A stretch of 55,319 nucleotides of DNA, from assembly GCA_021733925.1 (NCBI GenBank), contig JAIPJY010000048.1, positions 1 through 55,319 of the forward strand, read 5' to 3'. Shown in pieces: positions 1,379-46,571 of this stretch. Numbering within the stretch: position 1 is the first letter of the stretch; each line of letters opens with the position of its first letter. The notes beneath the pieces were generated by a model. The model saw only the letters and a list, made by a program, of their open reading frames with translations. It was not told the origin of the DNA and made no database searches. The stretch comes from Prosthecobacter sp. GTDB lineage: Bacteria > Verrucomicrobiota > Verrucomicrobiia > Verrucomicrobiales > Verrucomicrobiaceae. The position numbers and the translations under genes are program-made.

Positions 1379-1696
1379 ATGAACGACCTCCTGATCGTCT
1401 TTTGCACCTTCCCCGACATCGGGAAAGCCCGCGAGACTGGCACGGCACTGGTGGAATCGCAACTCGCCGCCTGCGTGAATCTCATCCCCGCCATCGAATC
1501 CATCTACCGCTGGCAGGGAAAAGTCGAAACCGCCCCCGAAGTCCTCGCCATCTTCAAAACCACCCCCACCGCCTGGCCCCGATTCGAATCCCGCCTCCAC
1601 GAACTCCACCCCTACGACGTCCCAGAAATCATCGCCCTAAAGCCGGAGCAGGTGGCGGCAGCGTACGCGCGGTGGGTGGGGGATAGCGTGAAGTGA
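1379..1696 (+). CDS. cutA: Divalent-cation tolerance protein CutA
   Basis: A 105-residue trimeric ferredoxin-like protein of the CutA1 family, whose members are linked to divalent metal (copper) tolerance, though the exact biochemical role is unsettled. Diagnostic motifs are visible: QLAACVNLIP (residues about 28-37), IYRWQGKV and HPYDVPEIIAL. Full family length. It starts 12 bp from the divergent histidine kinase, without a clear Shine-Dalgarno sequence. The GxxExxY repeat unit begins about 8 bp after its stop, so any native terminator has been displaced or was never there. Confidence 0.93.
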   Translation: MNDLLIVFCTFPDIGKARETGTALVESQLAACVNLIPAIESIYRWQGKVETAPEVLAIFKTTPTAWPRFESRLHELHPYDVPEIIALKPEQVAAAYARWVGDSVK

Positions 1697-1704
1697 TGAC
1701 TGAA

Positions 1705-1748
1705 ATTTTTACACCGCAGAGATGGGAACGCCGCAGAGTTTTTTTCAG
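1705..1748. repeat. Left outer inverted arm of the GxxExxY unit
   Basis: About 40 bp containing ACCGCAGAGATGGGAACGCC, repeated in reverse complement at 2651-2693. The two arms agree throughout except for T-run lengths. A degenerate inverted copy follows at about 1748-1775 (CTCAGCGGTATAAATC), so this end can also fold back on itself. CTGA directly precedes the arm here and directly follows the right arm, a possible 4-bp target duplication. Confidence 0.85.
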
Positions 1749-1784
1749 CAACGAATCTCAGCGGTATAAATCTTATCGTGTCGG

Positions 1785-2603
1785 TTATTTCCCTTGGGTT
1801 CGAATTCTGCGAATTTCGGTGACGAGGGATTCGGCATGGAAGTTGATGCAGAGGCCTGCAGCCACGTCGGCGGTCTTCAGCAAAGATCGATCTCTGGCGA
1901 GTTGGAGTGGACTGAGTTCCTTGATGCAATGGCAGGCCACCATCAGTTTGTTTTCAACGATCACTGGAAGTTCCTTGCTGCTGAGAATAAGCTGATCACG
2001 ATAGATGAGATTCGCAGGCAGCTTTACCTGCGTCTGGATGCCTCTCAATTGCAGCTCCCGCACCAGACAGGCTTCATAGGCACTGCGAAGCAGTCCATGG
2101 CCAAGCTCGTGCTGCACTTCCAAAGCAGCTGCCAAAACTTCACGGGAAAGTTCATCGAAATCAGTCGAAGGAGCCGTCTCATTGTAGGTACGACGTGAGT
2201 CCGGTTGCACCGAATACGCCCGCCGGACAATGCCATTCCTCAGGATCAGTGTGTTGAAATTCATGAGCAACCCCAGAGAGATCAAGGAAAGGCGTAGGTA
2301 GGTAAGCAGTTGCGCCTCGTGCATTGGATGGAGCTTTTCCACGGCTTTGAGTTCCAAGAGCAGTCGTCCCGAAACAACCAAGTCCATTCGATAACCGCAA
2401 TCGAGCGCCTTCCCTTTGTAACAAAGAGGCAATGGCACCTGATACTCGTGCTCTATGCCAAGAGCTTCCAGTTCCAGATGCAGCGCTTCTTCATAGTCCG
2501 CCTCATTCAATCCTGGTCCGAGAGTCCGATGCACGGCAATTGCGGCTCCAATGGCAAGCTTGGTGAGATCACCGCCGAGGTCGGGATGTAATGAGGCTGG
2601 CAT
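1785..2603 (-). CDS. Tandem GxxExxY (PD-(D/E)xK-like) protein
   Basis: A 272-residue protein made of two consecutive GxxExxY domains. Domain 1 (about 8-125) carries GLNEADY at 31-37 and a nuclease-like core with Asp74 and Glu84-x-Lys86 (LLELK). Domain 2 (about 148-268) is degenerate: GLLRSAY at 170-176 has Arg where the Glu should be, the position matching Asp74 is Gln204, and only Glu217-x-Lys219 remains. The family belongs to the PD-(D/E)xK fold superfamily, but its cellular role is not established. The gene lies between inverted repeats, with little spacer to cutA and gltX, as if delivered as a unit. A pseudo-domain fused to an intact one suggests duplication followed by decay. Nuclease activity is inferred only. 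Confidence 0.85.
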   Translation of the reverse strand: MPASLHPDLGGDLTKLAIGAAIAVHRTLGPGLNEADYEEALHLELEALGIEHEYQVPLPLCYKGKALDCGYRMDLVVSGRLLLELKAVEKLHPMHEAQLLTYLRLSLISLGLLMNFNTLILRNGIVRRAYSVQPDSRRTYNETAPSTDFDELSREVLAAALEVQHELGHGLLRSAYEACLVRELQLRGIQTQVKLPANLIYRDQLILSSKELPVIVENKLMVACHCIKELSPLQLARDRSLLKTADVAAGLCINFHAESLVTEIRRIRTQGK

Positions 2604-2610
2604 GATGCAA

Positions 2611-2693
2611 GATTTTTACACCTCAGTCTGAAAAGCAGCAGAGTTTGTTTCTGAAAAACTCTGCGGCGTTCCCATCTCTGCGGTGTAAAATCT
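2611..2693. repeat. Right arms of the GxxExxY unit (fold-back end)
   Basis: Positions 2651-2693 are the reverse complement of the left outer arm at 1705-1748. Just inside, 2611-2653 is a degenerate copy in the opposite orientation (begins GATTTTTACACC, ends GCAGAGTTTGTTTCTG). The two together can form a long hairpin directly upstream of the GxxExxY start codon (2603), where it could affect expression. CTGA follows the arm. Confidence 0.8.
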
Positions 2694-2709
2694 GACATAG
2701 TTTAGACTC

Positions 2710-4032
2710 CTACCCCGCCAGCACCTCACTCAACGCCCTCTCAATCCGCGCCAGCGTCTTCTCCTTCCCAATCAAATGCGCAATCGTCGTCACCCCCGGC
2801 CCGCGTGACTGCCCGCTCAGCGCAAAGCGCAGCAGCGGCATCATCGCACCCGGCTTCACACTCAGCGCCTTCGCCGCCGCTTCCACGGCATCATGCACCC
2901 CCTGCTCCGTCCATTCCGCAGCCTGGGCGAGTTGCTCGCCCGCTGCCTTCAGCAGCCCAGCATTCTCCGGCTTCGCCTTGAGCTTCGTCACCACATCCGC
3001 CTCAAAGGGATAGTCCTCGCGGAAGAAGTAATGCACCCATTCCGGCAACTCAGTGAGCAGGCTCACCTTCTCCCGCACACTATACACAGCAGCCGCAGCC
3101 ACAGCATCATCCTCCCAGACGAGCCCTTTGGCCGTAAGGAAAGTGCGCCCCTGCTCCAACAACTCTTCAGGACTCAGCTCACGCAAATACTGCGCATTGA
3201 ACCACAGTGCTTTCTTAAGATCAAACTTCGCGTTGCTGCTGTGAATCGCATCCGCGTCAAACAACGCCGTCAGCTCCTCACGCGAAAGCTTCTCACTCTC
3301 CGCCTTCGGCGTCCACCCCAGCATGCAGAGGTAGTTAAACACCGCCGCAGGCAAGAACCCGGCATTCATGTAGCTGTGCTCAATGGCACTCCCCTCATCC
3401 CGCTTGCTCATCTTGCTGCCATCCGGGTTCAGGATCAGCGGAATGTGCGCATAAGTCGGCGGCGTCGCCCCAAACGCATTGAAAAGATCAATGTGCTTCC
3501 AGGTATTGGACAAATGATCCTCGCCACGCAGCACATGCGTCATGCGCATCTCGATATCATCCACCACATTCACAAAGTGGAAAATGTAGCTGCCATCCGG
3601 GCGGCGGATCGTCATGTCCGGCTCCTCGGTCGGTGCAAAGGTTACATCCCCGCACACCAGGTCATGCACCGTGATGGCCGTGCGGCTGAATTTGAAACGC
3701 ATCGCGCCATCGTCCTCGGCATACACGCGCCCGGCGTCCTCCAGCTTTTTGAAATACGCGTCGTAGATGTCCTTGCGCTGGCTTTGGAAATAAGGGCCGT
3801 AGTCACCGCCCGCTTCCGGGCCTTCATCCCAGTCCAGCCCGAGCCAGCGCATCCCTTTGATGATGCCCGCCGCAGCCTCCGCCGTATTGCGCGCGCCGTC
3901 GGTGTCTTCCACCCGCAGAATGAAGGTGCCACCGCTCTTGCGCGCCATCAGCCAGTTGAACAACGCCGTGCGGGCGCCTCCGACATGAAGATCACCAGTG
4001 GGGGAAGGAGCAAAGCGAACGCGAATGGACAT
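2710..4032 (-). CDS. gltX: Glutamyl-tRNA synthetase
   Basis: A class I aminoacyl-tRNA synthetase that charges tRNA-Glu (440 residues). The start at 4032 gives the classical N-terminus MSIRVRFAPSPTGDLHVGG, in which HVGG is the HIGH signature. SKMSKRDEG is the KMSKS loop. The C-terminal anticodon-binding region ends LARIERALSEVLAG. At 440 residues it is shorter than the usual 465-500, mainly in the C-terminal half. The frame is open 29 codons further upstream, but that stretch has no family similarity. Whether it is discriminating or non-discriminating cannot be read from sequence alone. Confidence 0.95.
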   Translation of the reverse strand: MSIRVRFAPSPTGDLHVGGARTALFNWLMARKSGGTFILRVEDTDGARNTAEAAAGIIKGMRWLGLDWDEGPEAGGDYGPYFQSQRKDIYDAYFKKLEDAGRVYAEDDGAMRFKFSRTAITVHDLVCGDVTFAPTEEPDMTIRRPDGSYIFHFVNVVDDIEMRMTHVLRGEDHLSNTWKHIDLFNAFGATPPTYAHIPLILNPDGSKMSKRDEGSAIEHSYMNAGFLPAAVFNYLCMLGWTPKAESEKLSREELTALFDADAIHSSNAKFDLKKALWFNAQYLRELSPEELLEQGRTFLTAKGLVWEDDAVAAAAVYSVREKVSLLTELPEWVHYFFREDYPFEADVVTKLKAKPENAGLLKAAGEQLAQAAEWTEQGVHDAVEAAAKALSVKPGAMMPLLRFALSGQSRGPGVTTIAHLIGKEKTLARIERALSEVLAG

Positions 4033-4112
4033 GATTGGAAAGAAGTAGTGCGGGCAATCCTGCCCGCTCAGAACGAGCTTAAACAGGGGCCTGACAATAG
4101 CCGGGATTCGCC

Positions 4113-4143
4113 AATTCAAATTTCAAATCTCAAATTTCAAATC
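4113..4143. repeat. Short TCAAATTTCAAAT-type tandem repeat
   Basis: Four overlapping copies of a TCAAAT/TTTCAAAT unit fill the spacer between the divergent gltX and AsmA-like genes, ending about 15 bp before the latter's start. It is much lower in GC than the surroundings. No function is assigned. Confidence 0.7.
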
Positions 4144-46361: not shown

Positions 46362-46430
46362 GAGTCAGGGGAAACGAAGGGCGGCGAATATGGCGGGGTG
46401 AGCTCTTATGCAAAGGGCAAAAGCCGGAGA

Positions 46431-46571
46431 GATGGCCGCAAAAAGCAGACAGATGGCCGCAAAAAGACGCAAAGCGGTTCAAAAAAAGAGGCTGATCGGG
46501 GCTGCACCCGCTCCGAAAGAAGATCAGATCAGACTCTGATTTTGCGCCCTTTTTGCGTCTCTTTGCGGCCA
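46431..46571. repeat. Gene-less inverted CCGCAAAAAGACGCAAAG element
   Basis: The left arm GGCCGCAAAAAGACGCAAAG starts at 46454, preceded by a partial direct copy of AGATGGCCGCAAAAAG at about 46431. The right arm at 46545-46570 is its reverse complement with one mismatch in 19. About 70 bp of unrecognised sequence separates them. The motif resembles the ACCGCAGAG/CGCAGAG arms of the GxxExxY unit at 1705-2693. Confidence 0.75.

Follow-up and report, generated by a model that had tools for sequence, protein, structure and literature searches.

The question raised by this locus is whether a gene of the GxxExxY family which lies between matching inverted repeats is functionally joined to those repeats and, if so, whether gene and repeats move together. 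We know of no agreed function for this family. The locus was found in a 55,319-nucleotide stretch of DNA from Prosthecobacter sp. (contig JAIPJY010000048.1 of assembly GCA_021733925.1), the whole of which is referred to here as the window, and an earlier note had proposed that the gene and its palindromic ends are a possible mobile unit. The features of the window that enter the argument are listed below; the names of the two flanking host genes are those assigned in the earlier note.

1379..1696, plus strand: cutA, flanking host gene (stop codon 1694-1696)
1707..1743, plus strand: left outer arm, A1 type, two copies of the word CCGCAGAG at a spacing of 17 nt, oriented towards the gene
1749..1771, no strand: inverted and degenerate copy of the left arm on its inner side, seen in the letters (weak hairpin, z -1.7)
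1785..2603, minus strand: GxxExxY gene, an open reading frame of 272 aa with two PDDEXK_3 domains
2612..2646, no strand: inverted and degenerate copy of the right arm on its inner side, copies I2 and I3 (hairpin, z -5.0)
2654..2690, minus strand: right outer arm, upstream of the GxxExxY gene start, 37/37 inverted match to the left arm
2710..4119, minus strand: gltX, flanking host gene (stop codon 2710-2712)
46434..46570, no strand: gene-less inverted pair of A6 type (GGCCGCAAAAAGACGCAAA...), whose cognate gene (L018) is on another contig at C23:100339-100680

The unit is placed between the stop codons of cutA (1696) and gltX (2710). Its outer arms, 1707-1743 and 2654-2690, are reverse complements of each other at 37 of 37 positions with 910 nt between them, and a perfect inverted match of this length within 1.5 kb would be far beyond what is expected by chance. 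The near-identical arms of about 40 bp described in the earlier note are confirmed, the wider ranges 1705-1748 and 2651-2693 adding uneven T-runs to the perfect core. The further statement that each end forms its own hairpin stands for the right end, where the hairpin at 2608-2698 is strong (z -5.0, none of 200 shuffles being equally stable), but at the left end the hairpin at 1700-1775 is weak (z -1.7, with 13 of 200 shuffles equally stable). CTGA is present on both sides of the unit, as had been reported, at 1700-1703 and 2692-2695. The unit had no match among plasmid sequences. An empty cutA-gltX junction, which the earlier note had proposed to seek in a close relative, was found in genome G002, where 7 nt separate the two stop codons; it contains no CTGA and, at 82% identity, is too diverged for base-level placing of the joint. 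Genomes G001, G004 and G008 have other sequence in the cutA-gltX gap. The different fillings of this gap in three relatives (L052, L056 and L057) mark it as an insertion-prone spot.

The window genome contains eight GxxExxY genes, with nine domain matches, and the flanks of most of these genes seem to carry inverted repeats, each different (ACCACTAAT.., ACAGGATTAACAG.., ACCACGGAATACACAGAATACACGGA, GGCCGCAAA.. and GGCAAAGGAAT...). With this the question was widened from one element to the whole family. Inverted repeats were scored as the best local alignment between the upstream 450 bp of a gene and the reverse complement of its downstream 450 bp, with a threshold of at least 18. Four of the eight genes reach this threshold (L013, L017, L018 and L021) and L016 scores 17.5; in L015 and L014, which score 13.5 and 11.5, words are visible, and in L019 there are none. 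The first set of genes was drawn from the window genome, from order-level relatives (29 loci and 60 further stretches) and from 38 loci of named genomes, which are mostly of other phyla yet include Verrucomicrobiota (for example L079 and L080). It comprised 140 GxxExxY genes in 135 loci, of which 5 were dropped as duplicate proteins or for lying near a locus edge, leaving 135; longer proteins at the end of the list of order-level relatives were mostly left out and added later, and loci retrieved through the repeat or through gltX were excluded from the enrichment count.

Inverted repeats at or above the threshold bracket 72 of these 135 genes, compared to 13 of 806 shuffled pairings and 5 of 229 control open reading frames of the same loci. 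By origin, the counts are 58 of 97 for the window genome and its relatives and 14 of 38 for the named-genome loci, several of which are set in direct-copy arrays instead. Four loci of marine Gammaproteobacteria (L087, L090, L096 and L097) combine high direct-repeat scores with low inverted-repeat scores, and are seemingly arrays of this kind. A second set, for which the matches with the highest scores were taken from 288 phylum genomes (90 loci, with 2 edge cases dropped and the same threshold), gave 58 of 88 genes compared to 19 of 868 shuffled pairings; without L273, a gene already present in the first set as L083, the counts are 57 of 87 and 17 of 864. The control open reading frames of the second set, just 3 of which were usable, include none that reaches the threshold. 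The search for pairing between arms and GxxExxY genes that the earlier note recommended thus bears the pairing out, and the state of affairs that it named as contrary to its proposal, in which all relatives share the locus and no such pairing occurs elsewhere, is not the one observed. GxxExxY (PDDEXK_3) matches are present in 163 of the 288 genomes drawn from the phylum, with at most 13 in any one genome. Among the match-free genomes listed, 19 of 20 belong to a single genus, g2 (105 further genomes are match-free), and since one g2 genome, G084, has three GxxExxY matches, the genus suits a comparison of repeat loads.

The arms share a simple grammar, each being composed of 2-4 copies of a word of 6-8 nt at a usual period of 9-11 nt. 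The word differs by gene (CACAGAG, CGCTAAT and CACGGAA, repeated every 8-11 nt, are examples, and ACAGGATT is one natural type beside the A1, A5 and CGCTAAT types). Arm self-identity at a lag of 9 is 0.41, compared to 0.28 for shuffled arms, and the word matches CRC-NRAN, in 14 versions, in 103 of 137 arms (72 from the first set and 65 from the second, the latter with scores of at least 16). The spacing of the words follows the number of domains in the protein. Among 123 clear arms, all 7 belonging to two-domain (long) proteins have a word spacing of 16-18 nt, and 100 of the 116 belonging to single-domain proteins have a spacing of 8-11 nt; the other 16 single-domain arms have a spacing of at least 14, which in several probably represents the double of the basic period in three-word arms. 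Further long proteins were added to test the spacing, 26 being kept after 2 at contig edges were dropped and 1 duplicate stretch was removed (the first set had already included one of them, L379, with a score under the threshold). Inverted repeats at or above the threshold flank 19 of the 26, and 17 of the 18 with a clear internal repeat have a spacing of 14-18 nt, the exception being L381 with a spacing of 9, so that 24 of 25 two-domain proteins in total fall at 14-18 nt. Relatedness is common among these proteins (L370 shares its arm with L371, and L364 and L365 resemble L021), and the number of independent lineages behind the rule is therefore smaller than the counts. Without contact between protein and arms, a rule which joins domain number to word spacing would have no easy explanation.

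The word also co-varies with the protein. Mantel comparisons of protein with arm gave r = 0.316 in the first set (reached by 0 of 500 permutations), r = 0.289 after removal of 44 syntenic pairs (0 of 1000) and r = 0.393 for 57 genes of the second set (0 of 500). Similar arms, with a score of at least 12, are found in 6 of 6 unlinked pairs with a protein identity of at least 70% and in 1-3% of pairs with an identity below 40%. On the protein tree the word changes 34 times, compared to a mean of 68 and a minimum of 61 for shuffled words, and its last letter changes 4 times, compared to 39. In 41 of 44 syntenic pairs, a comparison which the threshold of 18 biases toward matched same-locus arms, the arms of a locus match each other better than those of the ortholog (medians 24.5 and 12.4), and 40 nt outside the arms score 6.0. 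In genome G007 both arms have a shifted word that was located at no other place in 37 genomes. A recognition code was considered for the residue that precedes the Y of QxxTY, T being found with a last letter G in 52 of 52 cases and N with A or T in 31 of 32, and was rejected, because G and A/T switch only once on the tree and the association therefore amounts to one event. Residue 14 of the protein and letter 2 of the word, which were chosen after a scan of columns, change on the same branch nine times (hypergeometric 1.5e-4), an association that is a lead only in the search for a putative recognition determinant.

Repeats of the same types are dispersed without the gene. A BLAST search with the window arm found ten further places at eight sites in the same genome, and one of these sites, on contig C64, consists of two A1 arms that face each other as a palindrome without a gene. 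With up to one mismatch, the two-word A1 pattern was located at 17 places of the genome including both window arms, and the A5 and A6 patterns occur at 20 and 25 places, in each case including two gene arms and one overlapping match; none of the three patterns occurs when reversed. A solo copy consists either of one arm or of two facing arms, the word-to-word distance being mostly about 69-78 bp. Across genomes, the A1 pattern is found in 23 of 37 (the window genome included), and the A5 repeat is found in 6 of 34 genomes that have no A5-type gene among the genes in hand. Arms in gene-anchored loci have a density of 19.6 per Mb in the same genome compared to 8.0 per Mb in other genomes, a ratio of 2.5, with reversed-arm control densities of 0 and 0.19 per Mb, and 14 of 72 arms have a same-genome match. 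The C64 hairpin is present in G000 and G002, and at the corresponding spot in seven relatives no intact arm was found, G001 having a single word; the surrounding intergenic DNA is too diverged for the joint to be placed. Genome G002 has 21 A1 and 18 A5 places, and its one GxxExxY match is without an active site, a state which may reflect either a recent loss of the gene or an assembly gap (L205 and L206). The A6 pair of the window, at 46417-46570, is bordered on the left by a short tandem repeat. Within another pair, of A1 type (L005 1501-1680; G000 C111:18948-19127), a foreign palindromic repeat of AAGTACTCGTGAGCT type is nested, and a repeat of this type also adjoins the Y1_Tnp locus L248.

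The window protein matches PF13366 with E = 5e-59 (198 bits, cut-off 22) and TIGR04256 with E = 1e-60 (203 bits, cut-off 35), and at E <= 1 a domain search returned PF13366 alone and no HUH/Y1 transposase domain (PF01797). Inspection by eye finds D..ELK..QLLTY in domain 1, which includes the catalytic D..E/DxK, and in domain 2 finds the E of GxxExxY changed to R, the ENK retained and the QxxxY without its Y. Residues 11-130 are predicted by AlphaFold with a pLDDT of 89-98 per ten-residue block, domain 2 being poorly predicted in the full protein, and the core of the relative L085 is predicted with a pLDDT of 96. The Foldseek matches of this core include Cas4 SSO0001, lambda exonuclease and Hjc, the best E being 1.1e-3 and the rmsd poor; a sequence search for solved structures matched no relative of the GxxExxY protein. 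The QxxxY motif marks the group of PD-(D/E)XK nucleases of Cas4, lambda exonuclease and AddB-RecB type, with which GxxExxY has the core fold and D..ExK..QxxxY in common. Cas4 is characterized by the cysteines of an Fe-S cluster and by a CRISPR context, and GxxExxY differs from nucleases of this type in its length of about 120 aa, in its pairing with private repeats and in the distance expressed by the Foldseek score.

The explanation that we favour, at somewhat better than an even chance, is a system of nuclease and cognate repeat in which the protein recognises its own word, gene-less arms spread and the gene is mostly inherited vertically, in a manner like that of RAYTs and REPs with an unrelated enzyme. 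The GxxExxY gene would encode a small Cas4/lambda-exonuclease-like PD-(D/E)XK protein, bracketed by inverted arms of the word which that protein would recognise as its own; the words read would stand about one helical turn from each other for a single-domain protein and about 1.5 turns for a tandem two-domain protein such as that of the window. The nuclease would act on the arms, or on a cruciform or hairpin formed by them, and this would be followed by the copying of gene-less arms and hairpins to new intergenic places, with arms copied or converted, and the gene would mostly stay put and be inherited vertically. Binding and nuclease action on the arms would explain the matched ends, the gene-less pairs, the link to the active site and the co-variation of protein and word. 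The bracketing, the co-variation of word and protein, the tie between domain number and spacing, the dispersed solo copies and the lack of arms at genes whose active site is unrecognisable are observed, and direct binding, cleavage and the spreading of the repeats by the protein are inferred. Against this explanation, the shifted-word gene of G007 has no solo copies in 37 genomes, repeats are present in G002 and in 6 of 34 genomes for A5 where no intact cognate gene is among those in hand, 14 of the 38 named-genome genes reach the threshold, the same-genome excess of arms is modest, L091 and L097 have tandem gene copies, the paired elements gave no target duplication and no jump was observed.

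It is possible, but unlikely, that the protein is instead a sequence-specific DNA-binding protein for which the arms are operator or processing sites (in autoregulation, in chromosome structure or as hairpin ends of mRNA), the solo copies having arisen via recombination or being relics. Arms that lie close to both gene ends, at medians of 30 and 20 nt, are consistent with this, as is G007, which has arms and no solo copies of its shifted word in 37 genomes, and co-variation needs recognition only, with mobility unnecessary. Operator sites do not account as readily for arms that are inverted at both ends, beyond the promoter side, or for a solo hairpin that is present in some relatives and missing in others. 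The state of the active site also argues against them. Arms are found at 72 of the 115 genes in which D..E/DxK is intact and at 0 of the 20 in which it is unrecognisable, and this absence, although the 20 are not independent (15 appear by synteny to be one orthologous group), suggests that cutting matters. The remaining five are the L033 piece and L111, which are fragments whose site is missing from the alignment, and L047, L049 and L153. The apparent orthologous group (L019, L050, L155-L162, L164-L166, L168 and L170) is armless and has lost its ExK site; many of its pairs are syntenic, and it has perhaps been domesticated.

Rather less likely again is a complete transposable unit, in which the gene and its terminal repeats move together and the solo copies derive from it by internal deletion (as MITEs). 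The G002 junction without the unit and the resemblance of the solo hairpins to an element minus its gene fit this explanation, and of 127 cross-genome pairs with an identity of at least 70%, 46 are not syntenic; the other 81 are syntenic, which speaks against it. Recent copies would be expected to leave near-identical genes within a genome, but the closest within-genome pair reaches at most 80% identity in 24 genomes of the phylum (under 60% in 22 of them) and at most 82% in 21 further genomes, maxima which refer to the genes in hand, a part of each genome's matches. Against the transposable unit too, a search with one query protein matched 8 of 72,556 plasmids and none of the 50,697 phage records. 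The suggestion that CTGA is a target-site duplication found no support at the level tested, since over 20 paired elements, the boundaries of which are uncertain, the mean best direct flank repeat is 3.35 compared to 2.92, a value reached by 48 of 400 shuffles, and the diverged G002 junction has no CTGA. Joint copying does occur locally in marine Gammaproteobacteria, as the tandem GxxExxY genes of two Pseudoalteromonas loci indicate (L091, 95% amino acid identity and about 3.7 kb apart; L097, 100% and about 0.8 kb apart; similar flanks in both). The earlier proposal that the gene and its ends move or are copied together therefore fits these tandems but finds no support among the genes in hand of the phylum, where repeat presence varies and the gene is mostly syntenic, so that repeats come and go and the gene mostly stays.

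A defence or toxin-like nuclease, with the repeats as self-recognition or antidote sites, is very improbable: a PD-(D/E)XK nuclease that has DNA words of its own, and of which a genome contains several different kinds, would suit such a role, but neither synteny nor the dispersal of the repeats suggests defence. Least probable of all is mobilisation of the repeats in trans by a RAYT or other transposase with the GxxExxY genes as passengers, since, although Y1_Tnp is matched 21 times in the genome and some of the loci (L242-L244) have their own strong inverted repeats, no A1, A2 or A4-A7 arm was found at these 21 loci, the loose A3 pattern being found at 3, and a passenger is not expected to co-vary with the word or spacing of a repeat.

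The favoured reading, of a nuclease with its cognate repeats, invites comparison with the REPtron, which consists of a RAYT (TnpA_REP) and its REP, REPIN or BIME sequences (PMC8266576 and PMC3733652); in the former, tnpA_REP genes are described as mostly single-copy without evidence of mobility, with cognate REPs genome-wide. The likeness extends to a gene between inverted repeats, to cognate repeats dispersed singly and as inverted pairs, to an enzyme and repeat that co-evolve and, probably, to a gene that is mostly single-copy without evident mobility. Dispersal is found here for A1, A5 and A6 but not for the G007 gene, and the single-copy feature is suggested by the identity limits of 80% and 82% among the genes in hand of 45 phylum genomes and by the rarity on plasmids with one query, with the tandems of 95-100% identity in L091 and L097 as departures from it. 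The differences begin with the enzyme, since GxxExxY is a PD-(D/E)XK protein (PF13366) and RAYTs are HUH/tyrosine proteins (PF01797). The consensus outside the arm is AATTTTA in 40 A1 copies and GATTAA in 39 A5 copies, and the GTAG/CTAC tag is absent from both, which leaves the repeat consensus without the GTAG tag of REPs. The GxxExxY arms are direct runs of short words at helical spacing, in contrast to the single compact palindrome of REPs, and the RAYTs of the window genome have other repeats. Because RAYTs are HUH enzymes and GxxExxY proteins are not, and because the RAYT repeats of the same genome differ, the comparison is that the one works like the other, not that it is the other. L242, L243 and L244, which are RAYT-like Y1_Tnp loci of the window genome, have long GC-rich inverted repeats, and a classical REPtron-like system is thus present alongside. 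We judge the chances to be evenly balanced that GxxExxY proteins are a PD-(D/E)XK counterpart of RAYTs, a widespread class of resident nucleases by which private repeats built of words are spread in bacterial genomes, with core residues setting letters of the word and domain number its spacing, and that much unexplained intergenic repeat DNA of ACCACAGAG, ACCACGGAA and CGCTAAT type in environmental bacteria is their product.

Other known systems correspond less completely. MITEs and transposons with terminal inverted repeats resemble the present system in having such repeats, and in that inverted pairs with a gene and those without one have identical types of end, but here target duplication was not found over the paired elements, the gene has no transposase domain, and recent gene copies were not seen among the genes in hand of the phylum genomes, the tandems of L091 and L097 standing apart. 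A homing endonuclease, whose gene would be copied into intact cognate sites, would be a further comparison; no dispersed near-identical genes were seen among those in hand of the 45 phylum genomes, and the empty sites are too diverged for comparison at the level of single bases. The multicopy nucleotide sequences of Geobacter bemidjiensis form families of palindromes and direct repeats, 6-42 nt in length, in intergenic DNA, and their insertion is reported not to be random (PMC2996986); the passages that describe them name no gene partner, and they may be of the same kind as the GxxExxY repeats.

In searches of the literature by name, with most subscription papers and all preprints outside the scope, GxxExxY was found rarely and was incidental in a passage of one of the papers in which it appeared, and PF13366 was also rare. 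Searches, mostly of open papers, for TIGR04256 and for a repeat sequence found nothing, none of the papers listed for PDDEXK_3 or inverted repeats contained PDDEXK_3, and the searches for REPtrons with PDDEXK, again mostly of open papers, found RAYT work alone. If the favoured reading is true, a common protein family gains a concrete and testable job, and a class of dispersed repeats is explained; it would also suggest that the REP way of life arose with two unrelated enzymes, and would provide a compact scaffold for DNA recognition with natural variation in both protein and target.

One further repeat lies in the window. At 4116-4143, between gltX and its neighbouring gene, TCAAATTTCAAATC occurs in two perfect copies, and a string resembling TCAAATTTCAAATC is present near the gltX start in locus L058.
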